Source of the DNA: Clostridium sp. AM49-4BH
GTDB lineage: Bacteria > Bacillota > Clostridia > Lachnospirales > Lachnospiraceae
Direction of reading: 5' to 3'
Length of the DNA stretch: 64,000 bases
NCBI RefSeq assembly: GCF_003478335.1
Contig: NZ_QUFB01000005.1
Span: 40,621 to 104,620 of the forward strand
The notes under the pieces are model-generated. The model searched no databases and was not told the DNA's origin. It saw only the letters and a list, made by a program, of their open reading frames with translations. Position numbers and translations under genes: made by a program. This document shows, in pieces, positions 3,797-41,009 of this stretch (within the stretch, counting starts at the first letter, position 1; each line of letters begins with the position of its first letter).

Positions 3797-4266
3797 CAAC
3801 CACATATCCATTTTGCAGCCAACAAACTAAATTGTTCTGCCATCAGGGGACTAAGACAATTGCCGCAGAACGCAAAGTTTTTGTGTGATTTCTTATTTTG
3901 TTTAGTCTCTGATGAATACATGCCTGAAGGAATGTCTGAGATGTCCCGGTTTAGCAAGGTATCATCGATTTTTGGACGGGACGCTTTCGCTACGATGTGC
4001 TACGTCACGTTACTTAATGTCTCTGAAATACGAGACATAAGTAACGACGAGCGCAAAGTCCCTTTCAAAAATGATGATTACCTTGCTTCCGGGACTTCGA
4101 GTTTCCGAAGGGCATGTAAATCAATCATCAGAGACAACAAAATTTAGAAATCACCTAAAACGAAAATGCGGCAAGGCAATTGCTATAGTTCCCTGATGGC
4201 AGAATCCACTAGGTAGTAGCTGCAAAATGCGATATAGCTATCGACATAATAGGCAATATGTGGCCT
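3797..4266. repeat. Long-hairpin repeat element, copy A
   Basis: About 470 bp without a convincing gene. It is nearly identical to 21278-21836 over its core. Terminal arms TTCTGCCATCAGG (from 3835) and its inverse (ending 4204) pair. Successive inner segments also pair, down to a central hairpin CGTTACTTAATGTCTC / GAGACATAAGTAACG near 4008-4048. The whole unit therefore folds as one long imperfect stem. An outer arm CCACATAT...ATATGTGG extends the symmetry. A 159-codon reading frame across it is probably a by-product of the palindrome, since the stop-free frame is only partly kept in copy B. Confidence 0.8.
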
Positions 4267-4301
4267 GTTAGCGTCTATGGACGTGTGAAGTTCGAGTTAA
4301 A

Positions 4302-4394
4302 TACATGTATATGAATTAGCATTCAAATTATTCCGGGAATCACATTTCACCGCCACGTACATATATATGAATTAGCACGGAAATTATTCCGGCA
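4302..4394 (+). repeat. Two 37-bp direct repeats upstream of cotJA
   Basis: 4302-4338 and 4358-4394 share ATATGAATTAGCA and AAATTATTCCGG with few differences, at a 56-bp period. The second ends 29 bases before the cotJA start. They may be regulator sites or duplicated promoters for the coat operon. I could not place a convincing sigma-E consensus in either. Confidence 0.55.
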
Positions 4395-4422
4395 ATAAAT
4401 AAAGAAAGAAAGGATACTCGCA

Positions 4423-4668
4423 ATGAATAACAGAAGTGAGATGAATGTTTGCTGTAATTCCTGCTCCCGTCCTAGTACAGACTGTCCGAACACTGATCCC
4501 TTACGCGGCATGCCTCTAGGTATTGGCTATGTTCCTGTCCAAGAATGGGGACAGACGTATTGTCCTGATAAAGCATTACAACGCGGAACTATTTTTCCAC
4601 CACTGGATCTGCCGTTTTGCGGCTGCATCCCTAAAGGATTTCGCTGTCAAAAAGGAGGTCTCTCATGA
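4423..4668 (+). CDS. cotJA: Spore coat-associated protein CotJA
   Basis: An 81-residue Cys-rich protein. The family core GMPLGIGYVPVQEWGQTY followed by the GTIFPPLDLPF segment is recognisable at residues about 29-65, and CotJA is part of the inner coat CotJ complex in Bacillus and Clostridia. An AAAGGA site precedes the ATG. The gene overlaps cotJB by four bases (ATGA), which indicates one operon cotJA-cotJB-cotJC. CotJ proteins are made in the mother cell during sporulation, so this operon marks the organism as a spore former. Confidence 0.9.
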   Translation: MNNRSEMNVCCNSCSRPSTDCPNTDPLRGMPLGIGYVPVQEWGQTYCPDKALQRGTIFPPLDLPFCGCIPKGFRCQKGGLS

Positions 4669-5093
4669 ACGGAAATAAAATGAATCGACCGAACAATGGC
4701 TGTGGCAATCAAATGAATCGACCGAACAATGGCTGTGGCTGTGGCAATCAAATGAACCGACCGAACAATGGCTGTGGCTGTGGCAACCAAATGAACCGGC
4801 CGAACAATGGCTGTGGCTGTGAATCTGTGGATTTTTCACAAAATCTTATGAATTTATGTCGCGATGATCTTCTCAAAGTAATCAACGAAGTGAGCTTCGC
4901 TATGTATGACTGCTGCCTGTTCTTAGATACACACCCTATGGATTCTTGTGCATTGGATTATTTTCAAAAAATGAAGAAAAAAAGAAAAGCTGCCATGGAT
5001 ATTTATACTCGCAAGTTTGGTCCTCTTGTCCTTGACTGCGCCGGTGATGGCTGCACTTGGGACTGGGGACAGGAGCCTTTGCCTTGGGAATAA
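4665..5093 (+). CDS. cotJB: Spore coat protein CotJB with N-terminal tandem repeat
   Basis: A 142-residue protein. The C-terminal CotJB domain runs from about residue 57 (FSQNLMNLCRDDLLKVINEV, then FLDTHPMDSCALDYF, ending EPLPWE). The N-terminus is unusual: four near-identical 13-residue units built on NQMNRPNNGCGCG, encoded by a 39-bp tandem repeat at about 4680-4820, add Asn and Cys. Extra Cys may favour cross-linking in the coat, and the repeat could vary in copy number. Start ATG at 4665 follows AAAGGAGG and overlaps the cotJA stop. Confidence 0.9.
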   Translation: MNGNKMNRPNNGCGNQMNRPNNGCGCGNQMNRPNNGCGCGNQMNRPNNGCGCESVDFSQNLMNLCRDDLLKVINEVSFAMYDCCLFLDTHPMDSCALDYFQKMKKKRKAAMDIYTRKFGPLVLDCAGDGCTWDWGQEPLPWE

Positions 5094-5184
5094 TCGGGCA
5101 TTAAAGGGCAACACAAGTTTAAGAATATATGAGAACGTTTTTTGTTGCGTTTCTTAAATTATAACTTCGAAAGGAAACTAAATT

Positions 5185-5278
5185 ATGTGGAATTATGAAA
5201 AGAGACTGCAGTATCCTGTGAAAATCACACGCTGCGATCCAAAAGCTGCCATGATCATAGCAAGTCAATACGGTGGTC
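5185..5278 (+). CDS. cotJC: cotJC, 5' part (interrupted gene)
   Basis: ATG at 5185 after AAAGGA starts MWNYEKRLQYPVKITRC, the start of CotJC, a manganese-catalase-like coat protein. Identity to the family holds through residues 26-31 (SQYGG region), then the frame runs into prophage DNA antisense to an endolysin and loses all resemblance (open to 5748). The missing part begins at 13447 in the matching phase. Joining 5268 to 13447 gives a continuous 201-residue CotJC. It is therefore an interrupted gene rather than a random truncation. Confidence 0.9.
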
Positions 5279-5297
5279 TGTACTCGGACAGTAGCAA
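5272..5297. other. attL of the cotJC-intervening element
   Basis: The core ggtggtct (5272-5279) is followed by the element arm GTACTCGGACAGTAGCAA (5280-5297). This arm is the inverse, with one mismatch, of the arm at 13432-13449. Rejoining the two arms around ggtggtct gives a 44-bp palindromic attP, the form expected of a large serine recombinase. The left flank belongs to cotJC. Confidence 0.85.
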
Positions 5298-5318
5298 ATT
5301 GTTTTTAGGTAAATTAAA

Positions 5319-7055
5319 TTATACTAAATACTTTTTATTCATATATCCAATTTTACCATTTTTCTCCACTTTTGCATACCATTTAATCGATGACCGAAAT
5401 AACACTTTAACAGATGCATTGTTAGCCACACGGAAATACTGTTTTTTCTTTTTTATGTCCTGCCACAAAATCAACCCCACAGGACGCTTAACTTTAGCCT
5501 TCCATGTCTCCTTAAATATCATAGGCGTTCCGTATTTTCTCTTCAGTTTTGTCGTTGTGCTTCCCCATTTAGATATGTACAGATGTGGCGTATCTACAAG
5601 GCTCTTCCAATCACCACCCCACGCAAGACCTACTGCTTTGGATTTTGCAATTTTAGCCACCTTTCTCATTAAATTGGTATCATATAATTTCTTGGAATCG
5701 TTGATTGCAAAATCAACAGCAATCCCCCACATGTGTTGGCTGGAATAGTTGCTGCCTTTGGCATTAGTAACGATCTTCCCCGGTTTAGTCCGTCCCTTTG
5801 CATACAGGGCATCCTGCTGTTCCTTCGTCCGGAACCCTTCGGTAACGATCAGATAAATTCCTTTCTTTCCACATTCTCGCAATAAACAAGTTAATTTATA
5901 ATCCATCCATGGATGCAGTTTTGACCTGTCTATTCTTACATCATGCTCTTTTTTCATTTCGATTTCTCGCTTTCTGTAGATCATCATTTGTCTATTGGTG
6001 TTACTTGTGTCTTTTGCATATATCCCCCTATTATTTCCCAGATAAAGACTCCCTGAAAAATCCACGGTGCCACCAAACAATGCAGATGTACCTGTTATTT
6101 TTGTTTCAATTGTATTTGCCGAGTTTGTGAACGACAACATTGGATAGATGGAATTATAGCAGCCAAGGATAGCTTTATCACCTGCTGTGGCGGTGTTGGA
6201 AAAATCCAAATAATTACCTCGAATAGTACACGTATTGATACGCGAATTGGCACTGTTTTGTATAAACACTCCACCATTATCAATATTGTTGAGTCTAGCT
6301 TTAGACATTGACTTAATATTTTTTGCCATAGATCCTGTCACCTGTTCCAGCGATACATCCACCAAATTTTCCATGTATTTCAATTCTTGTAATGTATCCG
6401 TTGCTACTCCCGTTTGCGTGGCAAGTGTATTCATGTCGTCAGCATAAAGAGCAACATTTTTTGCCTTTTTCCCATACTGATCTAATGATTTCGCACATTT
6501 ATCAGTAGCGTTTTCTGCCTCATGCATGTATTTTTCATTCTGCTGCACTGCATGATTTGCTTTTAACACCTGTGTTTGCGCTCTATTTAACTGCGTTCTC
6601 CATAAATCAACCCTTCTGGAAGCTGTATCATAATTGCGTTCCCCTTTTTCTATAGCCTGTGCTAATTCTTTGACCCTTTTCTCTTGTTTTTCAAGCTCTT
6701 TATCTGTACCAGAAGAGGATGCCTTCATTTTATTCATGCCATCCTGTGCCAATTGATATTCTTGTTTTAGTTTTCTCAAACTTTCAGATACTTTCTGCTG
6801 TGTTTTTTCTGCATGCTCCAAGCCTACACGCACTGATTCTTGTTTGGATTTTTGCATGTTCAAAATATTTGTCAGCACCGTATTTTTTTCTTGCAAAGCA
6901 GTCAAACTATTGGCATTCTCTGCGTACCTTTCTTTAACGAGGCCCAATTCAGACCTCATCGTTGCCAGCTTTTTATTACAGGCCGTCACCGCACTTTTAA
7001 ACTCTTTTTCCCCATCTAATACTATCGATGCCCCAATCTTTGCCTTGTTTGCCAT
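5319..7055 (-). CDS. Fusion of phage tape-measure N-terminus, tail-protein fragment and M15 endolysin
   Basis: A 578-residue frame from ATG 7055 (GGAGG five bases upstream). Residues 1 to about 250 are a coiled-coil tape-measure protein start (MANKAKIGASIVLDGEKEFK). Around 6295 it switches to a Gly/Asn/Thr-rich tail or fibre fragment. From an internal ATG at 5957 it is a 212-residue L-Ala-D-Glu peptidase-like endolysin with SSQHMWGIAVDF and DTPHL zinc-ligand motifs and an SH3-like C-terminus. Tape-measure proteins are normally far longer, so a deletion joined unrelated genes while keeping the frame. The lysin part could still be translated from its own ATG. Confidence 0.85.
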   Translation of the reverse strand: MANKAKIGASIVLDGEKEFKSAVTACNKKLATMRSELGLVKERYAENANSLTALQEKNTVLTNILNMQKSKQESVRVGLEHAEKTQQKVSESLRKLKQEYQLAQDGMNKMKASSSGTDKELEKQEKRVKELAQAIEKGERNYDTASRRVDLWRTQLNRAQTQVLKANHAVQQNEKYMHEAENATDKCAKSLDQYGKKAKNVALYADDMNTLATQTGVATDTLQELKYMENLVDVSLEQVTGSMAKNIKSMSKARLNNIDNGGVFIQNSANSRINTCTIRGNYLDFSNTATAGDKAILGCYNSIYPMLSFTNSANTIETKITGTSALFGGTVDFSGSLYLGNNRGIYAKDTSNTNRQMMIYRKREIEMKKEHDVRIDRSKLHPWMDYKLTCLLRECGKKGIYLIVTEGFRTKEQQDALYAKGRTKPGKIVTNAKGSNYSSQHMWGIAVDFAINDSKKLYDTNLMRKVAKIAKSKAVGLAWGGDWKSLVDTPHLYISKWGSTTTKLKRKYGTPMIFKETWKAKVKRPVGLILWQDIKKKKQYFRVANNASVKVLFRSSIKWYAKVEKNGKIGYMNKKYLV

Positions 7056-7170
7056 AAATTCCTCCAATCAAAAAGGAGACCTTTTACAGTCTCCTAATCG
7101 CTTATATTCTTTTCCACAGTTATCTAACCTTTTCATATAGTCTGTTTAGCTATCATTTTTCTCCACTCTG

Positions 7171-7503
7171 CTAATTTACATGTTTTGACCAGTTTTCCAG
7201 TCTATTCATGTATTCTTTTTCTCTCCGGGTCTCTTCCATGCTATCTATAATGTTATTAACTTTTCCTGCCTGATCGTGGTCAAATTTGACCGTCAACCAT
7301 GCAACTATTTCCATTATTATTATAAATGCACCAATGCCAATAAGCGCCCACCCCAAAATAGGACCAACAAACTTCTTAACAATCATTCCATACACTATCA
7401 TGCACAATGCCCAAAACAAACCTCTAGTATATTCATTTTTCCTAAAAAACAAAACAATCAATAATATAAGCATTCCACTAATGGATATTGGCGAATAGTA
7501 CAT
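7171..7503 (-). CDS. Small membrane protein of the prophage remnant
   Basis: About 110 residues starting at ATG 7503, six bases after a GGGGGG ribosome site. Two or three hydrophobic segments (residues about 8-22, 29-45 and 50-70) precede a charged amphipathic tail ending in an Arg/Glu-rich helix. It lies between the tape-measure fusion and the tail chaperone, where this phage type does not normally carry a membrane gene. It could be a morphogenesis or superinfection-exclusion protein. I do not recognise a family. Confidence 0.6.
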   Translation of the reverse strand: MYYSPISISGMLILLIVLFFRKNEYTRGLFWALCMIVYGMIVKKFVGPILGWALIGIGAFIIIMEIVAWLTVKFDHDQAGKVNNIIDSMEETRREKEYMNRLENWSKHVN

Positions 7504-7602
7504 AATCATCCCCCCGTTTCTACAACAATCATTACAATATTTTGTACTAATATTATAATCCAAAACATCCTTATTTACAACAAAAAATCCCCTATTATAT
7601 CG

Positions 7603-7788
7603 CTAAAAATCAAAATCTATAGGCTTTTCTATCTCATTTTCTGCTTTTATCAAATGCTCATAGTTTTGCCCTGTTTTATGTAACATATTCTCAACATCAA
7701 ACAGCCTCATATATGCTTGATACAATTCTTGATACTCTCCAAACGAGAGCCACATTGTTTCCGTGTGACTAAAACCCAGTCTGGCCAC
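7603..7788 (-). CDS. Tail assembly chaperone, -1 frameshift extension (GT part)
   Basis: This frame lies directly behind the chaperone ORF ending at 7821, in the -1 phase, and stays open from the slippery site to the stop at 7603. No good ATG or ribosome site precedes it; the ORF only gains a GTG at 7788 in mid-domain. Its sequence (FGWLKYVSVARLGFSHTE, then WLSFGEYQELYQAY) resembles the second product of siphophage G/GT tail chaperone pairs. It is therefore best read as the extension made by programmed frameshifting. Confidence 0.72.
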   Translation of the reverse strand: MARLGFSHTETMWLSFGEYQELYQAYMRLFDVENMLHKTGQNYEHLIKAENEIEKPIDFDF

Positions 7789-7820
7789 ACTTACATATTT
7801 CAGCCAGCCGAAGTCAATAT

Positions 7821-8126
7821 TTACTCTGTCTCCGTCTGGCTCTCCTCGTTTTTTTCATCGACATTGGAAGCGATGCTCTTCGAGAATATCACATACAAAT
7901 TTGCTGCCAGGTCATATACACCGCCTGCATTGTCTATGATGCTCTCTATGGCCTTTTTCGTCAACTCTGATCCGGAGGCTTTCGCACCATCTTCCAGAAA
8001 CAGTCTCGCCGTGTTACGCACTGTCGCTATGTCAAGCGACACATTTTCCTTTGCATCACCAATTAGCTTTTTCTCAAACACATACAACGAGCATGAGTTC
8101 TGCATTCGTTTTCTGCAGCCACTCAT
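7821..8126 (-). CDS. Tail assembly chaperone C-terminal part, N-terminus replaced by deletion
   Basis: From about residue 15 (YVFEKKLIGDAKENVSLDI) to the stop it reads as a phage tail assembly chaperone. The helical segment ends in an acidic tail SNVDEKNEESQTETE. The first residues of the frame are an out-of-phase reading of the neighbouring parA, so the true N-terminus was lost when a deletion at about 8090 joined parA to this gene. Translation would need the parA frame or the doubtful ATG at 8126. In phage the protein coats the tape measure during tail assembly, a role it cannot have here. Confidence 0.65.
   Translation of the reverse strand: MSGCRKRMQNSCSLYVFEKKLIGDAKENVSLDIATVRNTARLFLEDGAKASGSELTKKAIESIIDNAGGVYDLAANLYVIFSKSIASNVDEKNEESQTETE
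7848..7854 (-). promoter_or_regulatory. Slippery heptamer A AAA AAC for -1 frameshifting
   Basis: On the minus strand the zero-frame codons GAA AAA AAC contain the heptamer A AAA AAC. A -1 slip continues without a stop into the 7603-7788 frame. This is the canonical signal in tail chaperone genes of many tailed phages. Confidence 0.75.
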
Positions 8127-8397
8127 TCGCCGGAAGCACTGTTAAACTGCCAGACTTTGGTGTTCTGCAGTAATCATCTACGGTAATATCATCAGATACA
8201 GATATGCCATTCTGCATCAGCTTTGCCATGCCGCCAAACGATGCAGAATACGCTCCAAACACTTTTGACGAATCGCCTTGACAATCGGCATCTGCAAATA
8301 ATACCCTGTTACTTTTGCTTAACAAATATGCTATATTGGTGGCGGTCGTTGTCTTACCTACGCCACCCTTTAATGCTGCAACACATATGGTGTACAT
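8074..8397 (-). pseudogene. parA: ParA-like ATPase, N-terminal fragment
   Basis: ATG at 8397 follows GAAGGAGG. The deviant Walker A KGGVGKTTTATNIAYLL (residues about 10-26) and the segment FADADCQGDSSKVFGA are those of ParA/Soj partition ATPases. About 100 residues are present against a usual 250 or so. After NAELML the protein ends in an unrelated short tail where the sequence changes into the tail chaperone gene, so a deletion removed its second half. ParA usually partitions plasmid-like prophages or acts in replication modules. Here it is a relic. Confidence 0.85.
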
Positions 8398-8399
8398 TA

Positions 8400-8570
8400 T
8401 TACCCTCCTTCTTTGACGATCGTGTGCTTCGGTGTCTCCGTATACACATTTTCGCTGTGACAAAAGCTACACACTGCATTGCTCCGTCTGGTACTCCAAT
8501 ACTTTTTTCCACAACTTTTACAATGCACGATAAAAAACGGATCACTGACCCGATATTCGTCTTTCCACAT
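8400..8570 (-). CDS. Small zinc-ribbon protein (56 aa)
   Basis: Starts at ATG 8570 behind AGGGGGA and ends three bases before parA, so the two are co-transcribed. CKSCGKKYW and CSFCHSENVY supply the four Cys of a zinc ribbon. Small proteins of this kind are common in phage replication and regulatory regions, and no specific role is visible. The upstream frame extension to 8756 crosses a palindrome and lacks a ribosome site, so I rejected it. Confidence 0.65.
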   Translation of the reverse strand: MWKDEYRVSDPFFIVHCKSCGKKYWSTRRSNAVCSFCHSENVYTETPKHTIVKEGG

Positions 8571-8686
8571 AAATCCCCCTAACAAAATATCCGTCAGTGG
8601 ATTTATTGACGGATGAACCATATGTTTGTTACAATAGATTTGTACGGTGTAACTTGTATGGTTCATCATAGGGGCAGTAGATTCGT

Positions 8687-8845
8687 CTACTGCTCTTTTT
8701 TTACTTTTGGCTGATACACCTGACTGATCGTATAGATAAATCCGCCACACGGACAAAACTTTTTGTCATGCCGCAGTGAATAGATCTTGCCGCACAATCT
8801 GCATTCTTTATGGCTGCCTAACGTAGTCGCCCTCTGTACTGTCAT
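8687..8845 (-). CDS. Small zinc-binding protein (52 aa)
   Basis: ATG at 8845 follows GAGAA/AAGGAG-type purines (AGAAAGGAGAACCTT). The 52 residues contain CRLCGK and CPCGG, a compact metal-binding pair, and end in a Lys-rich tail. The stop codon lies inside an inverted repeat (GCAGTAGATTCGTCTACTGC) at 8674-8693. It belongs to the leftward prophage gene set. I do not recognise a family. Confidence 0.6.
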   Translation of the reverse strand: MTVQRATTLGSHKECRLCGKIYSLRHDKKFCPCGGFIYTISQVYQPKVKKEQ

Positions 8846-8871
8846 AAGGTTCTCCTTTCTTGTTCTCTAAT

Positions 8872-8899
8872 CCCCCCGGCAGGCTAAACGCCGGGGGGA
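8872..8899. other. GC-rich hairpin in prophage remnant
   Basis: CCCCCCGGC and GCCGGGGGG pair around a ten-base loop, between two leftward small genes. It lacks a T-run, so it may be an RNA processing or attenuation structure rather than a classical terminator. Confidence 0.45.
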
Positions 8900-8950
8900 T
8901 CAAAATAGGGTGGGAGTTTGCCCGTCATGCCGGTAGCTCAGCAATTTGTA

Positions 8951-9121
8951 TTATCCCGCTTTCTCTTTTCGCTGCTTCGCAACTCTCTTGTATCCAAGCT
9001 GAAGCATGAGCGTATCTGCTAACTTACCAGTCACATTACAACGCACTGTATCTTTTTCCTCTGATGTTAATGTTTCAAAATCGACAAATTTGCCGGCTTT
9101 TTTAATTAATATTCTACACAT
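8951..9121 (-). CDS. Small basic phage protein (56 aa)
   Basis: ATG at 9121 sits six bases after GGAGG. The product begins MCRILIKKAGKFVDFETL and ends with a basic segment RVAKQRKEKAG. No domain is recognised. The clear ribosome site and position in the leftward operon support it as a real gene. Similar short basic proteins occur in the early regions of clostridial prophages. Confidence 0.55.
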   Translation of the reverse strand: MCRILIKKAGKFVDFETLTSEEKDTVRCNVTGKLADTLMLQLGYKRVAKQRKEKAG

Positions 9122-9172
9122 AGAATCACCTCCAAAATTGTGACAATATATGAAGTGATCTGGTTGTCTTAT

Positions 9173-9197
9173 GCTTGCTTAGGGCGTGTTTGTATCA
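9173..9197. repeat. 25-bp inverted repeat, left copy
   Basis: 9173-9197 is a perfect inverse copy of 11779-11803, 2.6 kb away. The pair encloses the repressor, toxin and ImmA-like genes. It begins GCTTGCTTAGGGCGTG. A perfect 25-bp match in this interval is not expected by chance. Confidence 0.9.
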
Positions 9198-9347
9198 TCA
9201 AAACTGTATTGTGTCGTTATGGCACATCGTCTGCACGCTTTTCCACAATATGCTTAATACATATCCATTGAATGTCATCCCTTACTTCTTTGCATTCCTT
9301 TTTAACTTGCTATGTAATTCTTCCGGCAATCTTATTGTTGTTACCAT
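9198..9347 (-). pseudogene. Ribbon-helix-helix (Arc-like) regulator with an in-frame stop
   Basis: ATG at 9347 follows AAAGGA. Residues 1-21 (MVTTIRLPEELHSKLKRNAK) are a typical ribbon-helix-helix strand and first helix. A TAA at 9282-9284 then interrupts, but the same frame continues GMTFNGYVLSILW, which is the expected second helix, to a TGA at 9198-9200. One substitution would restore a 49-residue Arc-type DNA-binding protein. It is either a recent pseudogene or a sequencing error. Confidence 0.65.
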
Positions 9348-9392
9348 ACAATTTCTTTCCTTTCGTTTTGATGGCAATATCATACAAAAAAT

Positions 9393-9409
9393 ACCGAGGT
9401 TATCTCGGT
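9393..9409. promoter_or_regulatory. Palindromic operator-like site ACCGAG-N5-CTCGGT
   Basis: A perfect 17-bp palindrome, with a further half-site CACCGAGG at about 9417. It lies between the leftward XRE gene and the Arc-like pseudogene. Its size suits a dimeric HTH or RHH regulator. Confidence 0.45.
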
Positions 9410-9432
9410 ACGTTAGCACCGAGGTTTGTCAA

Positions 9433-9660
9433 TCAGCGCCAGCTCTCGCTTTCAGCGAGATTTTTTTCAAAAAAAATATAGTCTAATGGTATATTATATA
9501 TAGCCGATAATTTTTTCGATTCATCATATCCAGGAATTTTATCTCCCTTTTCCCATCTTCTAACAGTAGATCTATCGACTTGCATTTTTTCTGCCACTTG
9601 TTCCTGTGTCATTTCTGCATTAACCCTTGCCGCCGCCAAACTAATTTGTAACACTTCCAT
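9433..9660 (-). CDS. XRE-family helix-turn-helix regulator (75 aa)
   Basis: ATG at 9660 follows GGAAAG. The HTH occupies residues about 6-60: EMTQEQVAEKMQVDRSTVRRWEKGDKIP is the helix-turn-helix, in a Cro/C1-type fold. The short length suggests a Cro-like protein facing the larger repressor at 10191, which is transcribed the other way. The palindrome CTCGCTTTCAGCGAG lies inside its last codons, identical in its half-sites to the operator at 10086. Confidence 0.8.
   Translation of the reverse strand: MEVLQISLAAARVNAEMTQEQVAEKMQVDRSTVRRWEKGDKIPGYDESKKLSAIYNIPLDYIFFEKNLAESESWR
9445..9459. promoter_or_regulatory. Repressor operator candidate inside the XRE gene
   Basis: CTCGCTTTCAGCGAG is a perfect palindrome with five-base spacing, sharing both half-sites with 10086-10100. 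It is near the 3' end of the leftward XRE gene, so binding there could block elongation. Confidence 0.5.
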
Positions 9661-9702
9661 CTTTCCTTTCTCCCCGTGTAGCCGATAGGTCAGCCTTCTT
9701 AC

Positions 9703-9867
9703 CTAATCTCTACTCATTAGCTTATACAGAATCATCACCAGTAACACTACTGCTAAAAATCCCATACATATCTTTACCGGAATAGGCATCCCCATTTTAA
9801 CACCTACAATAGTTGCTAAACAGAGAATTACAGTCAATGTGTGTCTAATCTTATCACTGCTTTTCAT
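9703..9867 (-). CDS. Possible small membrane protein (54 aa)
   Basis: An open frame from ATG 9867 encodes two hydrophobic segments (residues about 10-27 and 31-50) with basic ends, like a short holin or membrane peptide. There is no clear ribosome site before the ATG, and a rightward promoter for a possible antisense RNA overlaps it. It may be a relic. Confidence 0.35.
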   Translation of the reverse strand: MKSSDKIRHTLTVILCLATIVGVKMGMPIPVKICMGFLAVVLLVMILYKLMSRD

Positions 9868-10030
9868 TGTATTATTATATACGATGTGCTATACTTCAAG
9901 TGGTTGGGGCTTTCGCCCCTCCCACCCTAGCTATCAACTCAGTCTTTTAATAAAGCAATGAGCGTTGCGAGTACTCCGACCGCTTCTATTATAAGACTTA
10001 ATATCTCATAAGTTGATAGCTTTTTTCTTT
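9866..10030 (+). ncRNA. Possible antisense RNA to the 10056 toxin-like gene
   Basis: TTGTAT (9866-9871) and TATACT (9889-9894) are spaced 17 bases apart on the plus strand. Downstream come a hairpin GGGGCTTTCGCCCC and a long-range stem AGCTATCAACT / AGTTGATAGCT followed by T6. That would give an RNA of about 120 nt opposite the 3' half of the leftward toxin-like gene, as in TxpA/RatA-type loci. Confidence 0.4.
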
Positions 10031-10056
10031 TTGTCTTTCTTCTTTTTATTAGCCAT
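9939..10056 (-). pseudogene. Holin-like type I toxin, possibly frameshifted in a poly-A run
   Basis: ATG at 10056 has an excellent AAAGGAGG site and starts a poly-Lys leader that stops after 16 codons at 10006. The frame shifted by one base within the AAAAAA run reads LSTYEILSLIIEAVGVLATL then IALLKD, a single hydrophobic helix with a short charged tail, typical of small holin-like toxins (TxpA/Fst-like). Removing one A gives a continuous peptide of about 38 residues. Either the run is miscounted or the gene is dead. Confidence 0.45.
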
Positions 10057-10085
10057 CGTTTTCCTCCTTTCCAAACACATTGCAC

Positions 10086-10152
10086 CTCGCTAATAGCGAG
10101 ATGTCAACCCTTTTTGCGAGATTTTTTTTACTTTTTGTTGTATTTTTCTCGC
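10086..10152. promoter_or_regulatory. Operator region of the prophage repressor
   Basis: A palindrome CTCGCTAATAGCGAG (10086-10100) is followed by half-sites GCGAG (10116-10120) and CTCGC (10148-10152). The last half-site falls between TTGTAT and a TATTAG-like -10, just before the gene at 10191. This arrangement suggests repressor binding and autoregulation. Confidence 0.6.
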
Positions 10153-10190
10153 TTTTATGATATTAGTATCTTATAAGGAGGTTGTATCAT

Positions 10191-10589
10191 ATGGCAGAAA
10201 ACGAATATAAAAAAATTTTTGCAAAAAACCTTAAACACTATATGACATCGCAAGGCAAAAACCAAATGGATCTTATGCACGATTTAGGATTGAGTTCTTC
10301 AACCGTATCAAATTGGTGTACAGGTGCAAAACTTCCACGTATGGATAAGATACAATTGCTTGCAGATTATTTTCATATTATGAAATCCGACTTGCTAGAA
10401 GAAAAATCTGCCAGTAATACAGATGATTACTATCTCAATCCAGAAACAAGCAAAATAGCACAAGAGATTTATGACAACAAAGAACTATCCTTACTCTTTG
10501 ACGCAGCCAGAGACGCAGATCCCGAAGATCTGCAAACTGTGCATAGCATGTTAATGGCATTAAAACGTAAAGAGCAGGGTAATTCATAA
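10191..10589 (+). CDS. Phage CI-like repressor (XRE HTH)
   Basis: ATG at 10191, seven bases after AAGGAGG. The 132-residue protein has an N-terminal HTH (GKNQMDLMHDLGLSSSTVSN, residues about 22-60) and a C-terminal helical part without the Ser/Lys autoprotease residues of LexA-type repressors. Next downstream is an ImmA-like gene, and such pairs relieve repression by proteolysis or antirepression in ICEBs1-type elements. It probably binds the CTCGC/GCGAG operators upstream and keeps the element quiet in vegetative cells. The last point is inference. Confidence 0.82.
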   Translation: MAENEYKKIFAKNLKHYMTSQGKNQMDLMHDLGLSSSTVSNWCTGAKLPRMDKIQLLADYFHIMKSDLLEEKSASNTDDYYLNPETSKIAQEIYDNKELSLLFDAARDADPEDLQTVHSMLMALKRKEQGNS

Positions 10590-10604
10590 TTATAGACTAA
10601 GGGG

Positions 10605-10844
10605 GTGACGCAAATATACGATGATATTAATAGTTTTCTAATCGACTTTGGAAATTCTGTACCTGCATCAGTAACGGTCAATGAAGATGGCAGTTATAGC
10701 ATTTTTCTCAATGCAAGAATTTCCCACGAAAAACGGCTACAGGCCTATCAACACGAATTAAGACACATACTTAATCACGACTTCGAAACTGCAAACATTA
10801 ACGTCAACGACATCGAATTGACAGCACATCACAACAAATTATGA
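10605..10844 (+). CDS. ImmA/IrrE-type metallopeptidase, short form
   Basis: GTG at 10605 following AAGGGGG. The 79 residues contain HELRHILNHDF (about 48-58), the HExxH zinc motif plus a third ligand region of ImmA/IrrE (DUF955) peptidases. ImmA cleaves a cognate CI-like repressor in ICEBs1. The gene follows the repressor by 15 bases, which fits that role. At 79 residues it is shorter than most members (120-150), but the motif core is complete. Confidence 0.72.
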   Translation: MTQIYDDINSFLIDFGNSVPASVTVNEDGSYSIFLNARISHEKRLQAYQHELRHILNHDFETANINVNDIELTAHHNKL

Positions 10845-10862
10845 AAATCTAGGAGGTACAAA

Positions 10863-11381
10863 ATGATCTATCTAATTATATGGGCGGTTCAAGGCGCCAT
10901 TTGGGGATTTGCAACAAACAAAATCGTTGAAAATAAAGGATATGATGAAAATTGGTTCTGGTGGGGATTCTTTTTCGGGCTCATCGCTCTTCTTGTTGCT
11001 TTATCCAAACCAACAGTATACCATCATTCCGAATACGAATCATCAGAGTATTTACCGCTCTCTAGCGCAGCTAATTCTTTCGTTGCAGAGCATCGCAAAA
11101 ACAGCATGAATGATGGCGATTGGGAATGCTATTTTTGCCACAGAATAAACGCCGACTATGTTACCAATTGCGGTTGCGGCAAAAGCAAGGAAGAAAGCGA
11201 ACAGCAAAAAGCAATAAATGCAAAAGCACAAAGGGAATTGCGCGAACGACAGAAAAAGCAACAAGATTCTATATCCGATAATGCTAATACCATTGAACTT
11301 ATTAAAGAGTATAAGGAATTATTAGATTCTGGAGCAATCACGCAAGAAGAATTTGACAAAAAGAAAAGCGAGTTACTTTAA
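10863..11381 (+). CDS. Membrane protein with zinc ribbon and SHOCT domain
   Basis: A 172-residue protein with AGGAGG seven bases before its ATG. Two hydrophobic segments occupy residues 1-20 and 33-48. A zinc-ribbon-like CYFCHRINADYVTNCGCGK is at about 82-100, followed by a charged coiled region. The C-terminus IELIKEYKELLDSGAITQEE then FDKKKSELL is a SHOCT motif, often found on oligomerising or membrane-remodelling proteins. It is third in the repressor operon and is followed by a terminator. Function in the prophage is unknown. Confidence 0.7.
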   Translation: MIYLIIWAVQGAIWGFATNKIVENKGYDENWFWWGFFFGLIALLVALSKPTVYHHSEYESSEYLPLSSAANSFVAEHRKNSMNDGDWECYFCHRINADYVTNCGCGKSKEESEQQKAINAKAQRELRERQKKQQDSISDNANTIELIKEYKELLDSGAITQEEFDKKKSELL

Positions 11382-11410
11382 TTGTGATATTCCGGAGTGA
11401 TTTGGAACGT

Positions 11411-11441
11411 ACTCCGGCGTCCTTCGGACCCGGAGTTTTTT
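11411..11441 (+). terminator. Intrinsic terminator of the repressor operon
   Basis: ACTCCGGCGTCC / GGACCCGGAGT with a TTCG loop and T6, 30 bases after the SHOCT gene stop. Confidence 0.8.
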
Positions 11442-11527
11442 ATTGATTAACATAATAATGTACATTTAACTGGGGAGCCAAAGGGTGCTACGACAGCCAC
11501 CGGACTTTACGAAAGGGGCTGATGCCA

Positions 11528-11614
11528 ATGGTTACATACAGTGATTTATTTACTTTTGTGATTATGCTTTGCGCAGTGATTACTCTTGTTATATCGCTTA
11601 TACGCAAAAAGTAA
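11528..11614 (+). CDS. Putative holin-like type I toxin (28 aa)
   Basis: A 28-residue peptide MVTYSDLFTFVIMLCAVITL ending ISLIRKK: one hydrophobic helix with a basic tail, the pattern of the holin-like toxin family (TxpA, BsrG, Fst relatives). A GAAAGGGG site precedes the ATG. A convergent RNA starts from a near-consensus promoter on the other strand and overlaps its 3' end and terminator, as in txpA/ratA of the B. subtilis skin element. Overproduction of such peptides damages the membrane. They stabilise the element in the chromosome. Confidence 0.72.
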   Translation: MVTYSDLFTFVIMLCAVITLVISLIRKK

Positions 11615-11650
11615 CGCCCCAGCTTCGACAAAGTAAGGCGTTACTTTTTT
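11606..11650. terminator. Shared bidirectional terminator of toxin and antitoxin RNA
   Basis: AAAAAGTAACGCC / GGCGTTACTTTTTT forms a strong stem flanked by A- and T-runs, so transcripts from both sides end here and their 3' ends are complementary. Confidence 0.75.
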
Positions 11651-11702
11651 CTTCTTATTTATGCCGGCGGCTAGTCTGCACCTAGCGTTTGGCTCTCTTG
11701 TT
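11606..11702 (-). ncRNA. Antisense antitoxin RNA (RatA-like arrangement)
   Basis: The minus-strand promoter TTGACT (11731-11736) - 16 bp - TATAAT (11709-11714) would start an RNA near 11702 running leftward into the toxin 3' end and stopping at the shared terminator, about 95 nt. Its internal segment GCGGCTAGTCTGCACCTAGCG can fold. No coding potential is seen. Confidence 0.68.
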
Positions 11703-11708
11703 AAGTGT

Positions 11709-11736
11709 ATTATAGCAAATCTGCTGTAAAAGTCAA
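11709..11736 (-). promoter_or_regulatory. Near-consensus promoter of the antitoxin RNA
   Basis: TTGACT and TATAAT with 16-base spacing on the minus strand, the best housekeeping promoter in the element. A strong constitutive antisense promoter is typical for type I toxin control. Confidence 0.75.
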
Positions 11737-11778
11737 CTGCCCCCGGTCAACGACCAGAGGCAGTCAACACGTGTCTGG

Positions 11779-11803
11779 TGATACAAACACGCCCTAAGCA
11801 AGC
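11779..11803. repeat. 25-bp inverted repeat, right copy
   Basis: Perfect inverse copy of 9173-9197. It lies just upstream of the recombinase gene and just beyond the antitoxin promoter. Confidence 0.9.
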
Positions 11804-11889
11804 TTATTATATCACACACAGGCACATTTTGCAAAGATGTGTTATTTTTATACACATTTTTATAAATTATACCAAAGGAGTGTGTGAAT

Positions 11890-13364
11890 ATGATAAAAAC
11901 AGCCTGCGCCTATGTGCGTGTATCCACTGACAAACAAGAAGAACTGTCCCCGGATAGTCAGATCCGTGAAATCAAAGAATATGCAGCTAGAAACAATATG
12001 CTTATCTCCAAAATATACGTAGAAGAGCATGGCATTTCCGGCAAAAATGCCAGTAAACGCCCGGCATTTCAGGAAATGATCGCCACCTGCAAGGAGAAAT
12101 CACATCCATATGATGTTGTGCTGGTATGGAAATTCTCACGATTCGCCCGCAACATTGACGAATCGACCTATTACAAATCAATCTTGCGCAAGAAATGCAA
12201 TGTAGATGTCCAGAGTGTATCAGAGCCAATTATCGAGGTATGTATGGACGTTTGATCGAGATGGTGATCGAATGGTCGGACGAATTTTATTTATATAACC
12301 TTTCCGGCGAAGTTCATCGTGGAATGACGGAAAATGCTCTGCGAGGCGGTTACAACAGCAATGCGCCACTAGGTTACATCAAAAAGAAAGGCTGCATACC
12401 CGAAATAGACCCACCTAAAGCAGACATCGTTAAGTACATATATGATATGTACACGAAAGATGATATGGCAATGGCTGACATCGCTGCCAAGCTCAATGCT
12501 CTCGGTTATCGTAGCAACAGGGGTAGCAAATTTGAGTTAAAAACAGTCGCATACATCTTGGATAACCCCTTTTATATCGGGAAGATCCGTTGGAACTATT
12601 ACGACAGAAACAATCACCAGCGTAAAAATGAGGATGAAATTATCATAGTTGACGGAAAGCATGAGCCGATCATTACAGATGAGCAATGGGGATTGGCACA
12701 AGCCAAGCGCTGCAAGGCAAGAAAACATGGTGGATTTGGCCGCAAACGAACTTCCGTTACTGCCGGGCATTGGCTGTCAGGCATGATAGCCTGTTCCGAA
12801 TGCGGATCCAATTTAGGCTATCACCGTGATGTGCATTTTTTTAATTGCTGGAAGCATGCTAAAGGAGTGTGTCGTTCCACCAGCAGTATCACAGAAGCCA
12901 AAGCGATCCAAGAAGTTTTATCTGCACTACAGTCCCTTGCCGCCTCCGATTTTTACTATATATACAGCGAGCAAGCCGGAGCGGAAACGGATGACCTTGA
13001 GGTGAAACGTACTCAATCCGAACTTGACAGCTTGAGCGTAAAACTCAAGCGCGTAAAAGAAGCATACCGAAACGGAGTAGACACACTCGATGAATACCGA
13101 GAAAATAAGCAATTGATCATGGCACGACAGAACGAACTGGAAGCCAAGCTAGCTACCTTAGAAACACCTATCGCTCCAAAACAAAATCGCAAGAAAGTTG
13201 ATTTTGGGGAAATAATCCGATTGATTCAAGATGAATCTGTTACCACAGAGCAAAAAGCCACCGCTATACGAAAAATATTTGATCATTTTGAATGGAATCG
13301 TGAGAAACAACAGTTTTCTGCATTTCTGTCTGATGATATAATGAGCACACAGTGCTCATCTTAG
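11890..13364 (+). CDS. Large serine recombinase (SpoIVCA-like), one-base frameshift
   Basis: ATG 11890 is nine bases from AAAGGAG. The resolvase domain has AYVRVSTDKQ with the catalytic Ser and the loop GISGKNASKRPAF. The frame breaks at about 12238: adding one G after GAGG joins SEPIIE to GMYGRLIEMVIEWSDEF. The recombinase domain with RGMTENALRGGYNSNAPLGY, a zinc ribbon CSECGSNLGYH...CWKHAKGVC and a coiled coil follow. Corrected length is about 491 residues, the size of skin and Tn4451-type recombinases. It lies next to attR and should integrate and excise the element across ggtggtc. Sequencing error or inactivation both fit the frameshift. Confidence 0.88.
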
Positions 13365-13431
13365 GAGTTTCTCCGAAACTCCATTATGATATCTATATAA
13401 CAAATGCCGCATTTTAGACATTTTGGGGCAA

Positions 13432-13457
13432 TTGCTACTATCCGAGTACGGTGGTCC
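13432..13457. other. attR of the cotJC-intervening element
   Basis: Element arm TTGCTACTATCCGAGTAC (13432-13449) followed by ggtggtcc, where cotJC resumes. The arm is the inverse of 5280-5297 with a single mismatch. The common bases at the two junctions are tacggtggtc. Confidence 0.85.
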
Positions 13458-13968
13458 TGACGGCGAAATTGGTGCTTCCATGCGATATCTGTCACAGCGT
13501 TATTCCATGGAAAACCGCATTGCGGCCGGAACGTTGACTGACATCGGCACCGAGGAATTGGCCCACTTAGAGATGGTTGCAACCATCATCTGCCAATTAA
13601 CCAGGAATCTTACCCCGGAAGAAATCAAGGCTTCTGGATTTGACAAATATTATATCGATCACACCTTAGCCATTTGGCCACAGGCCGCAAGCGGCGAGCC
13701 TTTCAGTGCCAGCCAGTTCCAGAGCACCGGCGATACGATCACAGATCTTTACGAAGATATGGCGGCTGAACAAAAAGCACGCTTAACTTACGACAATATT
13801 CTCCGTCTTGTGAAGGACCCAGAGATTGCAGATCCGATTCGCTTTTTAAGAGAACGTGAAATTGTTCATTTTCAGCGCTTTGGTGAAGCGCTCCGCAAAG
13901 TACAGGATGAACGAGACTCACGCAACTTCTATGCCTTCAACCCACAGATCGATAAAAAATCATGCTAA
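13447..13968 (+). CDS. cotJC: cotJC, 3' part (manganese catalase-like coat protein)
   Basis: The frame from TAC 13447 continues exactly where the 5' part stops: YGG + PDGEIGASMRYLSQRY, then DIGTEELAHLEMVATIICQL and FLREREIVHFQRFGEALRKV. Glu and His residues in EELAHLE and REREIVHFQRF are the dimanganese ligands of Mn-catalase-like CotJC. The C-terminus has an extra tail NPQIDKKSC that runs into a 60-bp tandem repeat. Without excision this part lacks a start and ribosome site of its own; the TTG at 13423 is inside the prophage arm. CotJC therefore needs precise recombination in the mother cell. Confidence 0.9.
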   Translation, partial: YGGPDGEIGASMRYLSQRYSMENRIAAGTLTDIGTEELAHLEMVATIICQLTRNLTPEEIKASGFDKYYIDHTLAIWPQAASGEPFSASQFQSTGDTITDLYEDMAAEQKARLTYDNILRLVKDPEIADPIRFLREREIVHFQRFGEALRKVQDERDSRNFYAFNPQIDKKSC

Positions 13969-14095
13969 AATTACATTGGGTTGAAGGCATTGCATTCCAA
14001 CCCACAGATTGATAAAAAATCATGCTAAAATTACATTGGGTTGAAGGCATTGCATTCCAACCCACAAATTGATAAAATATTATGTTATAATTACT
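13931..14095 (+). repeat. 60-bp tandem repeat at the cotJC 3' end
   Basis: Two and a half units with exact 60-base period (13938, 13998, 14058). The first unit codes the last residues and stop of cotJC. Each unit has the inverted pair ATGCCTTCAACCCA / TGGGTTGAAGGCAT, so the transcript can form strong stems after the coding region. It may act as a terminator or mRNA-stability element. Confidence 0.8.
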
Positions 14096-14099
14096 AACT

Positions 14100-14190
14100 A
14101 CTTCCCATATCGGAGGTTACTGACCGATCCACATATTGTTATTATTTTATTGGCAAAATAGCAATATGTGGTCAGGCAGTAAATTGGGAT
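14100..14190. repeat. Small member of the CCACATATTG hairpin family
   Basis: ACTTCCCATAT...CCACATATTG and CAATATGTGG...TGGGAT pair around a short loop. These are the outer arms of the long-hairpin elements at 3797 and 21278, without their core. Confidence 0.6.
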
Positions 14191-14228
14191 ACGCGATAGT
14201 TGTATGATGCTTATAAGGAGATTGTAAA

Positions 14229-14453
14229 ATGACAATATTGAACATGATAGCTGCAGATGAAGAGATATCACAATTAAATAAAGAGTTAAAGGAAAAGACC
14301 GGACAGAGTCTGGGGTTTAATTATGATTGTTATACGGGAATAGAAGACTACAAAGAACATCTTCGAGAGTGTGCTAAAGATGGAAAAATAATAATACGCC
14401 CACAAGATGAGGCCGCGAGAAATAGATTTGCTACTGTGATAAGTAGACAATAA
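14229..14453 (+). CDS. Hypothetical protein (74 aa)
   Basis: ATG 14229 follows AAGGAG. An acidic-basic helical protein (MTILNMIAADEEISQLNKEL at the start), with no recognised domain, signal or membrane segment. It is followed by a second small gene 44 bases later with its own ribosome site, and both end before a strong terminator, so they probably form a two-gene unit. Unknown function. Confidence 0.6.
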   Translation: MTILNMIAADEEISQLNKELKEKTGQSLGFNYDCYTGIEDYKEHLRECAKDGKIIIRPQDEAARNRFATVISRQ

Positions 14454-14497
14454 ATTAGAAGGCGACAACGCTACCCAAAAGTTAAAGGAGGGATAAA

Positions 14498-14704
14498 ATG
14501 ACTCAAAAACATAAGGAAGCCAGTATGAAATTTATCGAGCATTTTGGATATTACCCAAATCATCCAAATGATATAGATTTTGATCAGGATGCCTATGCAG
14601 AGGAACTGTTAAAATGTGTCGAAGATAACTTTGATTATACAATAAAGAAGTATGGAACGGTGCCAAAAACAGAACAGCCTAAACCTGAAATAATTTGGGA
14701 TTAA
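14498..14704 (+). CDS. Hypothetical protein (68 aa)
   Basis: ATG 14498 follows AAAGGAGG. An acidic 68-residue protein with EHFGYYPNHPNDIDFDQDAY in the middle and a Pro-rich end (EQPKPEIIWD). No membrane segment or known motif. Its clear ribosome site and terminator support expression. It lies directly downstream of 14229-14453 on the same strand. Confidence 0.6.
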   Translation: MTQKHKEASMKFIEHFGYYPNHPNDIDFDQDAYAEELLKCVEDNFDYTIKKYGTVPKTEQPKPEIIWD

Positions 14705-14741
14705 ATACCACCAGTCGGAGATGACATGGTGGTATTTTTTG
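14705..14741. terminator. Intrinsic terminator
   Basis: TACCACCA / TGGTGGTA stem followed by T6 on the plus strand. It also overlaps the end of the convergent hydrolase gene. Confidence 0.8.
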
Positions 14742-14743
14742 TA

Positions 14744-15265
14744 TTACCGCACTTCGATCTGGCACATCTTCATTGCTTCTAAAGCATTCTTATGGCTTTC
14801 AGGCGTGACACCGGCGCAGCAATCCTGCAATACAGCAACCGGTACTTCCGGTAAATACGCTTTAACGAGCAATGCATTGGAAATAACACAAATATCCGTA
14901 CACAGCCCCACCAACGTAATTTCTTCAATGTCTTCCTCAATAGCCAGTCTCTGTAAATAGTCTCCCAACTCTTTGGAGCCGAAGGTCATCTTCTCGAACA
15001 CTTTGTCCTGTGGGCATTTCACCGTCTCTATATCCTCTGCCAGATTCCAACCGTCGGTTCCTTTGATGCAATGTGGCACCGGCAGATTTTTTCCTTCCTG
15101 CGTATCCATGTAATCATCAAAATGTGTGTCTTTCGTGTATAAAATCGTTCCTTCAAAGCCCTTAATTGTCTCAATAACGTTAGGTACAATAGCAACCGCT
15201 TCTTTCGTGCCAAGTGCACCGTCAATAAAATCATTTTGCATATCTACAACAATTAATACTTTCAT
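14744..15265 (-). CDS. Cysteine hydrolase, nicotinamidase/isochorismatase-like
   Basis: ATG 15265 is preceded by AAAGGAAAAG; an upstream frame extension lacks a site. The 173-residue protein starts MKVLIVVDMQNDFIDGALGT, where Asp10 is the catalytic acid, and has the nucleophile Cys in VGLCTDICVISNALLVKAYL. A Lys between them completes the triad of the family. DTHFDDYMDTQEGKNLPVPH matches the metal/substrate loop of nicotinamidases (PncA), so conversion of nicotinamide to nicotinate in NAD salvage is likely. Related amidases cannot be excluded. Confidence 0.82.
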   Translation of the reverse strand: MKVLIVVDMQNDFIDGALGTKEAVAIVPNVIETIKGFEGTILYTKDTHFDDYMDTQEGKNLPVPHCIKGTDGWNLAEDIETVKCPQDKVFEKMTFGSKELGDYLQRLAIEEDIEEITLVGLCTDICVISNALLVKAYLPEVPVAVLQDCCAGVTPESHKNALEAMKMCQIEVR

Positions 15266-40166: not shown

Positions 40167-41009
40167 ATGGATATTTTTAAGCTTGGAGACAAGATCCTTG
40201 CACTTCTTGAGGCGGTGTTTGGGTTTTGGAACAATCAGATATCCCTGGTCTTTGCAATGCTTGGACAGTCACCGGTCAGTTTCAAGGGCGGAGGTCCCTG
40301 GGCAGTCATTGAGGGTATTGAGCCGGTCTTTGTAGCGGTCGGCTCTTCCCTTGTTGTGCTGTTCTTTGTTATCGGTTTCTGCTCGGAAAGCATAGACGTA
40401 AAAGATGAGATGAGGTTTGAATCAATCCTGCGTATGCTTATCCGACTGGGACTTGCAGAATGGTTTGTTGCAAATAATGTCACGATTATGAAAGCATTTT
40501 TTACTTCCATAGGAAATCTGGTGGGACTTATATCTGCCGGGACAACGATGCAGCTTGCCATTGACAGTACACAGGCAGACATCATTAAGGGACTCGGATT
40601 TGGTGAAAGTCTGGTAATGCTGATACTTACAGCTTTGCTTGCAATCATCATTATTATCTGTGGATTTTTTATCATCTACACAGTGTATTTCAGGTTCTTA
40701 AAGATTCTGATTATTGTGCCGCTTGGTGCGATTGCCTGCTCCACGATGGCAGGAAACAGAATGGTCAGTCATACAATGGCTACCTACTGTAAATATTTCT
40801 TGTCATGTGTGTTTGAGGCAGTAACGATGGCACTTGCGATTGTGGTATGTAATGCATTTATCAATGCAGGACTTCCGGCATTTACAGGAAGTTATGCTGA
40901 CTGGGCACAGACACTTATATATCTGTGTGAAATGACATTTACGATAGCAATGACTGTTGGAAGCGTGAAGGGTGCACAGACACTTACAAGCAAGGCATTT
41001 GGATTATAG
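40167..41009 (+). CDS. VirB6/TrbL-like conjugal channel membrane protein
   Basis: 280 residues with six or so hydrophobic helices (about 56-75, 97-120, 137-155, 157-180, 210-230, 248-270) and the GGGPWAVIEGIEPVFVAVGS start of CagC/VirB6-type ICE proteins. It forms the inner-membrane core of the mating channel with VirB3/PrgI and VirB4, whose genes follow. Intact. Confidence 0.85.
   Translation: MDIFKLGDKILALLEAVFGFWNNQISLVFAMLGQSPVSFKGGGPWAVIEGIEPVFVAVGSSLVVLFFVIGFCSESIDVKDEMRFESILRMLIRLGLAEWFVANNVTIMKAFFTSIGNLVGLISAGTTMQLAIDSTQADIIKGLGFGESLVMLILTALLAIIIIICGFFIIYTVYFRFLKILIIVPLGAIACSTMAGNRMVSHTMATYCKYFLSCVFEAVTMALAIVVCNAFINAGLPAFTGSYADWAQTLIYLCEMTFTIAMTVGSVKGAQTLTSKAFGL

Follow-up and report, generated by a model that had tools for sequence, protein, structure and literature searches.

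A decayed prophage splits the spore coat gene cotJC of Clostridium sp. AM49-4BH at a recurrent break point and points to probable skin-like intervening elements in its lineage

The excision of a phage by its large serine recombinase (LSR) requires a recombination directionality factor (RDF). Programmed excision in sporulation is so far known from a handful of genes, and the accessible portions of four publications (PMC10747680, PMC5595907, PMC4191935, PMC5025042) name sigK, spsM, spoVFB, spoVR, gerE and yabG as sporulation genes with intervening elements. As regards the skin element of Clostridioides difficile, the accessible part of PMC5025042 describes a constitutive LSR and an RDF under sigma-E and SpoIIID which sets the timing, and that of PMC10747680 gives this RDF a length of 53 residues; the term cotJ is absent from the accessible portions of PMC10747680, PMC5595907 and PMC4191935. 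The present work concerns cotJC, which is interrupted by a decayed prophage in a stretch of 64,000 nucleotides from Clostridium sp. AM49-4BH (contig NZ_QUFB01000005.1, forward-strand positions 40,621 to 104,620; henceforth the window, to which all coordinates refer unless a locus is named). An earlier note on this DNA had proposed cotJC as a new site for a skin-like element, and a check of titles and abstracts, with preprints and most subscription journals outside its scope, brought up no case of an interrupted cotJC. We consider it likely, with a probability of roughly 0.75, that in this lineage skin-like intervening elements restore cotJC in the mother cell.

As judged from Pfam matches, the window contains cotJA, cotJB and cotJC in this order on the forward strand; to go by the title of a work cited in PMC5025042, cotJ is under sigma-E control. 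The first gene of the operon, cotJA (4423-4668; CotJA PF11007, E 4.9e-17), is followed by cotJB (4665-5093; CotJB PF12652, E 8.8e-27) and by the Mn-catalase-like gene cotJC, which is broken off after codon 31 by inserted DNA and resumes at 13447. The 5' piece (5185-5278, codons 1-31), recognised by an Mn_catalase PF05067 match, by tblastn and from the join, and the 3' piece (13447-13968, codons 29-201 including the core; Mn_catalase E 3.5e-40), which contains no internal stop, flank an intervening element of 8,178 bp (5269-13446). The 10-bp direct repeat TACGGTGGTC stands at both junctions (5269-5278 and 13447-13456), and fusion of the flanks at this repeat yields an uninterrupted CotJC frame of 201 residues with the motif SQYGGPDGE, just as the earlier note had described it. 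Because the repeat is 10 bp long in phase, as against at most 3 bp at 12 other tested offsets, and because many relatives are broken at the same codon, the split is more than chance.

Inside the element ends, inverted repeats (5280-5297 and 13432-13449) agree by reading in 17 of 18 bases, an arrangement which we take to be typical of an LSR attP split between the two ends. From the repeat comparison and the offset test, attL (5269-5297, core plus left inverted arm) and attR (13432-13456, right inverted arm plus core) were set on the forward strand. The LSR itself (11884-13364, forward strand; phrog_95 integrase) ends 67 bp before the right arm, and its Resolvase N-terminal, Recombinase and zinc-ribbon (Zn_ribbon_recom) domains are all present, spread over two open reading frames, ORFs (11884-12255 and 12195-13364). 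An intact relative in Bacterium D16-36 (locus L074) is 80% identical to the first part and 49% to the second.

The joined CotJC of the window served as query for the genomes of relatives, in which contiguous, split and partial genes were tallied by hand. Four fixed break points emerged, namely A (around codon 30, the site of the window element), B (59-69), C (around 136) and D (around 174, found in the nearest genus and in D16-36), and all of them coincide with conserved motifs (YGGPDGE, EELAH, AAEQKAR and HFQRFGEA). CotJC is homologous to 1jku, and its residues 35, 65, 68, 136 and 169, presumably Mn-catalase metal ligands, are conserved in 85, 86, 86, 86 and 86 of 86 genes, respectively. In the nearest genus 50 of 62 genomes gave a match, with 21 contiguous genes and 29 split or partial ones; at least two pieces were found in 16 of the latter, meeting at a common point in 15, and part of the partial copies are contig ends, as in G067 and G026. 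Family f17 gave matches in 53 of 58 genomes, many of them broken at the same points and some (G100, G115) in four pieces.

For an even order-wide sample 157 genomes were requested at 90% completeness. Among the matches listed there are 92 genomes, 55 with contiguous cotJC, 36 with a split or partial gene and one with a distant paralogue only, so that 36 of 91 are split or partial, with at least two pieces in 29 (the second piece of G124 comes from the family f17 search); G201, tallied as contiguous, has a 62% cotJC copy plus a site-A split. The earlier note had spoken of a rare rearrangement, which does not hold for an order in which such splits are common. Relatives with a continuous cotJC, for which it had suggested looking, do exist: 72 of 80 named loci have one in a search that favours intact genes, and the other eight lack the part before site A, an LSR lying nearby in six of them and none at L078 and L110. 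The distance between cotJC pieces of the same chromosome reaches 53 kb in G145. A 5' piece was sought in the 15-kb stretch of G112 and not found there.

Two genomes show unusual copy numbers. G197 has a split cotJC and three more copies of residues 99-187 within 20 kb (L193 2149-19998, L194 17356-17472), each with a similar short stretch upstream and one of them decayed, which may be spare 3' ends or repeat insertions. In G235 the downstream piece occurs twice (L191 3667-4086 and 7207-7626) with 462 of 465 bases the same, the second copy at a contig end, and the duplication is perhaps an assembly effect.

Out of 32 cotJC junction pairs 31 could be evaluated, and 27 of these showed an in-phase core and a rejoined CotJC; in the remaining four the alignment ends overran the junction. 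Inverted arms, seen by eye, and the LSR positions add weight to the junction case. From 57 LSR ORFs (four loci duplicating others), 40 lie no more than 90 bp from a cotJC junction, a further 11 at a distance of up to 1.2 kb, and six farther away or with no piece nearby. In a tree of 46 LSRs beside cotJC, for which the program gave a long-branch warning, those of sites A (18, including the 3' LSR piece of the window), C (10) and D (5) form one clade each and those of site B (13) form two groups, a sorting by site which shuffled labels never equalled.

The elements are of several kinds. The scanned genes of the site-A element of G064 and the site-B element of G001 are siphophage-like (tail tape measure), the latter also including terminase and portal. 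Roseburia phage Jekyll (LR596902.1) has an integrase with the same sequence as the site-B LSR of G001 (100% over 517 residues), and the GAATT core of this site forms both limits of its GenBank record; this reveals cotJC as the genomic seat of a known gut phage. A site-C element carries an FtsK-like protein and may resemble an integrative and conjugative element (ICE). At the small end, the element of L169 is only 2.2 kb long and holds an aminotransferase and a 288-residue LSR, and those of L170 and L171 (4.4-4.8 kb) combine an LSR with small ORFs and an isochorismatase-like gene; among the ORFs scanned, phage structural genes were not seen in the small elements that diverged along with their host.

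Some of these loci deserve mention for their own sake. The site-B recombinase of L169 (2961-3827) consists of Resolvase and Recombinase domains only and is short for its class, and a homologue of it is found in L183 (2643-3530). In G098 a 5-kb site-C element (L172 3985-6878) carries an amino-acid-kinase (aspartokinase-like) gene, an AraC-like ORF recognised by eye and a weakly HipA-like ORF; ordinary cell genes of this sort would vanish from the mother cell on excision. A contig filed as viral in IMG/VR (L189 1317-2968) contains cotJC residues 28-64 between a site-A LSR and an apparent site-B junction. The site-C recombinases of L184 (G087, family f17) and L147 (G007, family f1) are almost identical, which points to recent transfer between families.

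Both the split gene and the recombinase appear to be maintained. Each of 44 downstream cotJC pieces (5,357 codons, the short site-D tails omitted) is covered by a single alignment and thus has no frameshift; small gaps occur in six of these alignments, and a single stop was met overall, in L132. One must bear in mind that the search for loci relied on protein homology and would have overlooked badly decayed pieces. The 3' piece of the window is not accelerated (mean distance 0.258, as against 0.240 with a standard deviation of 0.026 for 72 intact genes), and in relatives the split cotJC is under purifying selection.

This can be followed in the small site-A elements of the related species G107 and G105 (L170 and L171), of which that of G107, an Anaerotignum-like species, is 4.8 kb long. 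Synonymous divergence (dS, which is rough near or above 1 and saturated between the window and L074) amounts to 1.51 for the LSR, 1.24 for the isochorismatase-like cargo, 1.10 for a flanking gene, 1.48 for cotJB and 0.94 for the cotJC 3' piece, with omega values of 0.108, 0.103, 0.031, 0.061 and 0.032, respectively. The similar dS and the shared cargo suggest a single old insertion. Since the element has diverged about as much as the host, it has probably resided in cotJC since the ancestor of the two species, with cotJC and LSR both still useful. G118/G119 and G113/G115 are similar (omega 0.09 and 0.03 for cotJC, 0.22 and 0.13 for the LSR).

A candidate RDF was sought for site A only. In the window it is an ORF of 56 residues with an open frame (8951-9121, reverse strand), found with a family hidden Markov model (HMM) and matched by homologues P0005-P0009 at 80-96% identity. 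An iterated HMM search, whose model included some over-long N-termini, of 18,359 small ORFs of the studied loci gave 11 matches at E<0.01, ten in site-A elements of cotJC (the window included) and one in a related phage, L190. When whole genomes were searched with a trimmed alignment at E<1e-5, the genome groups being set by hand and G095 and G142 being doubtful splits, the gene was found in family f17 in 11 of 16 genomes with a site-A split, as against 1 of the 41 remaining ones, and in 6 of 11 against 1 of 41 (p 1.4e-4) after removal of those that had built the alignment. The nearest genus gave 5 of 8 against 2 of 54.

The ORF is preceded by a putative mother-cell promoter (9145-9171, reverse strand), judged by consensus sequences, with CATATATT (9152-9145) as the -10 and the SpoIIID-like box TAAGACAACC (9171-9162). 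The -10 common to sigma-E and sigma-K promoters is CATANNNT, and the consensus of the SpoIIID-like box is WWRRACARNY. With family start residues set by hand and CATANNNT counted where it starts 37-23 bases before the start codon, the motif was present in 11 of 13 members of the discovery set and 4 of 10 held-out members, compared with 3.4% of 2,443 control starts; CATA alone was found in 7 of 10 held-out members (8.0% of controls) and the SpoIIID-like box in 5 of 13 and 4 of 10 (1.7% of controls). Box and CATA occur together in 9 of 23 members, that of the window included, and in 16 of the 2,443 controls.

The remaining genes of the window element are those of a phage remnant, as the earlier note had it, and were assigned with Pfam and PHROGs. 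On the reverse strand there are a fused remnant of a tape-measure-like N-terminus and an endolysin-like (VanY/Peptidase_M15_4) C-terminus (5319-7067), a short ParA-like ATPase with a partial profile match (8074-8463; AAA_31, phrog_164) and an HTH_3 repressor-like gene (9433-9660); on the forward strand, a cI-like regulator (10182-10589; HTH_26, phrog_2967) and a small protein with an HELRH motif (10605-10844; phrog_20886, of no assigned function in PHROGs), which we take to be ImmA-like by name. A viral contig of 38 kb (L190) shows, by eye, a cI-like gene, a small HELRH-like protein and an LSR in the order of the element; this LSR is 64% identical to that of D16-36, and no cotJC adjoins it. 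Its gene content and this likeness in gene order mark the element as a degraded prophage, most probably of siphophage origin. Two further features concern the surrounding operon: CotJB is extended at its N-terminus by Cys- and Asn-rich repeats that resemble MNRPNNGCGCGNQ (4665-4839), and cotJC is followed by tandem near-copies of a 60-bp unit made up of its end and the following DNA (13935-14080).

Taken together, the cotJC of these clostridia is a recurrent target of mobile elements that carry an LSR. The window holds one of them at site A, where an LSR presumably put in, at codons 29-32, a siphophage that has since shrunk to 8.2 kb. Among elements of this lineage, the LSR would be turned to excision by a small factor which the element itself encodes and which would be produced in the mother cell; the 56-residue protein is the candidate for it, and its promoter might be read by sigma-E or sigma-K. 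Excision during sporulation would make cotJC whole in the mother cell, and the forespore would retain the element, so that nothing would be lost to descendants. Comparative sequence evidence favours functional excision: in relatives, selection acts on the two parts of the split gene as well as on the LSR, and there is a small gene whose promoter resembles those active in the mother cell.

Several observations weigh against such excision. Among the 27 clean junctions, five have an equal or longer run at another offset, and short cores alone therefore prove little; an excised circle or attP was not found with the patterns tried in IMG/VR and in 62 genomes of the genus. The site-C LSR is identical in G001 and G028 despite saturated divergence of cotJC between them, which indicates recent transfer, and recent insertions of this kind may be just new lysogens. 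The candidacy of the small protein as an RDF stems from its size, place and promoter. In the genus, its association with site A loses significance without the genomes that built the alignment (1 of 4 against 2 of 54, p 0.20). Three of ten held-out members have not even CATA at the set place, two earlier hold-out runs, in which over-long N-termini of the first HMM had mis-set the start codons, gave 0 of 7 and 3 of 10, and the promoter p-values are too small, because the members are related and the motif was picked after looking. A scan for sigma-E promoters before 42 LSR starts (1 of 17, 1 of 12, 2 of 8 and 0 of 5 at p<0.05) showed no enrichment, the scan being weak in that no more than 11 of 60 cotJA controls were recovered, and a plain count of CATANNNT at these starts gave 6 of 42 compared with 3.1% of controls.

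A further difficulty concerns the copy of the window only. The earlier note had credited the element with a serine recombinase of its own, which stands as to the LSR domains but not as to an intact gene, for the frame shifts near 12,237 and two frames face the single one of the D16-36 homologue. A programmed frameshift was considered, and a slippery heptamer was not seen by eye. The break is open to three readings, namely recent loss, a sequence error or help in trans, and, with the LSR broken, present activity would need either a sequencing error or a recombinase from elsewhere. It is possible, though less likely than not, that this copy is dead, the LSR of an old insertion having lost its frame and cotJC being a pseudogene in this strain even if relatives excise theirs; such a view agrees with the broken frame and with the fused and shortened phage genes, and is compatible with mother-cell excision in the lineage. 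On the other hand, the 3' piece has neither stops nor acceleration, the att arms and the 56-residue candidate with its promoter boxes are intact, and a lone frameshift may have arisen recently or reflect a sequencing error.

Plain lysogeny, in which conserved active-site codons of cotJC would make a good attB, a dispensable coat gene would be broken and excision would be ordinary induction with no link to sporulation, seems unlikely. The placement of the insertion sites in the four conserved motifs, the recent insertions (the site-C LSR shared by two species, Jekyll in G001) and the failure to see a clear sigma-E signature at LSR promoters would all suit it. It is at odds, however, with open pieces under purifying selection in small, host-co-diverged elements without phage structural genes among the scanned ORFs, with the likewise conserved LSR of these elements, with the mother-cell-like -10 that often precedes the site-A small gene, and with the open state of the examined pieces in three- or four-piece genes.

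It is highly improbable that CotJC is made as a split protein or that separately made pieces are joined at the RNA or protein level with no DNA excision. The downstream piece of the window is open, with a possible TTG start at 13423, which would allow this, but the breaks lie in conserved motifs, the pieces may be as distant as in G145, the sites have the anatomy of LSR att sites, and the Pfam matches of ten window ORFs include no intein family. An RNA intron as the cause of the interruption was ruled out, as a search of 4000-15000 with Rfam returned no family above threshold. An assembly or binning artefact, for which one could cite the many multi-contig drafts among the relatives and the pieces at contig ends, is barely credible, and is refuted for the single-contig cases, by the ordered same-strand pieces on one contig in the one- or few-contig genomes G001, G064, G107, G145 and G242 and by the phage record of Jekyll that terminates at the same core.

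Mother-cell excision in the lineage may be part of a wider pattern, which we hold to be somewhat more probable than its contrary: cotJC would be intron-like at the DNA level across the order, broken into as many as four pieces by as many as three LSR elements of independent acquisition (phages, minimal ones of non-phage kind and perhaps ICE-like ones), which would be kept for long since the LSR of each element and, at least at site A, a factor timed by sigma-E and SpoIIID would remove it in the mother cell, the window being one allele. If true, this would be a common way of organising a gene in gut bacteria (about two in five of the sampled genomes with cotJC, among the matches listed), the composition of the spore coat would hinge on the cutting of DNA, and nature would offer many LSRs paired with a candidate directionality factor for study. 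The skin-like case that had been proposed for the window survives as an LSR-bearing, decayed element restorable in frame, and gives way as a single rare event to several LSR groups at four sites.

The likeness to skin in sigK of Bacillus subtilis and Clostridioides difficile lies in a prophage-like element with an LSR inside a mother-cell gene and in restoration by excision, which for cotJC is our reading of the comparative evidence. The target of skin is a sigma factor, whereas here it is a coat catalase-like gene with four sites and several LSR groups. Roseburia phage Jekyll, reportedly active in mice, is a full phage, while the window element belongs to another group at another site. In the heterocyst field, several elements in one gene are known. 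Cyanobacterial heterocyst elements, according to the accessible part of PMC5025042, are likewise excised in a terminal cell line; they differ in phylum and genes. A CotJC-like gene of C. difficile adjoins the phi027 prophage, and the accessible part of PMC11222575 presents it as a bacterial gene downstream of attR and does not call it split. SPbeta in spsM of Bacillus, as far as the accessible part of PMC4191935 goes, resembles the present case in that an active phage and decayed remnants share one sporulation-gene site and in that an LSR is accompanied by a small RDF with a putative mother-cell promoter on its gene; there one site and one phage group are involved, as opposed to several groups at cotJC. 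In the accessible literature, yin in yabG of Clostridium botulinum, gin in gerE of Bacillus cereus, vfbin in spoVFB and vrin in spoVR likewise intervene in mother-cell genes, and yin is described there as unique to one strain, whereas the splits of cotJC span many families.

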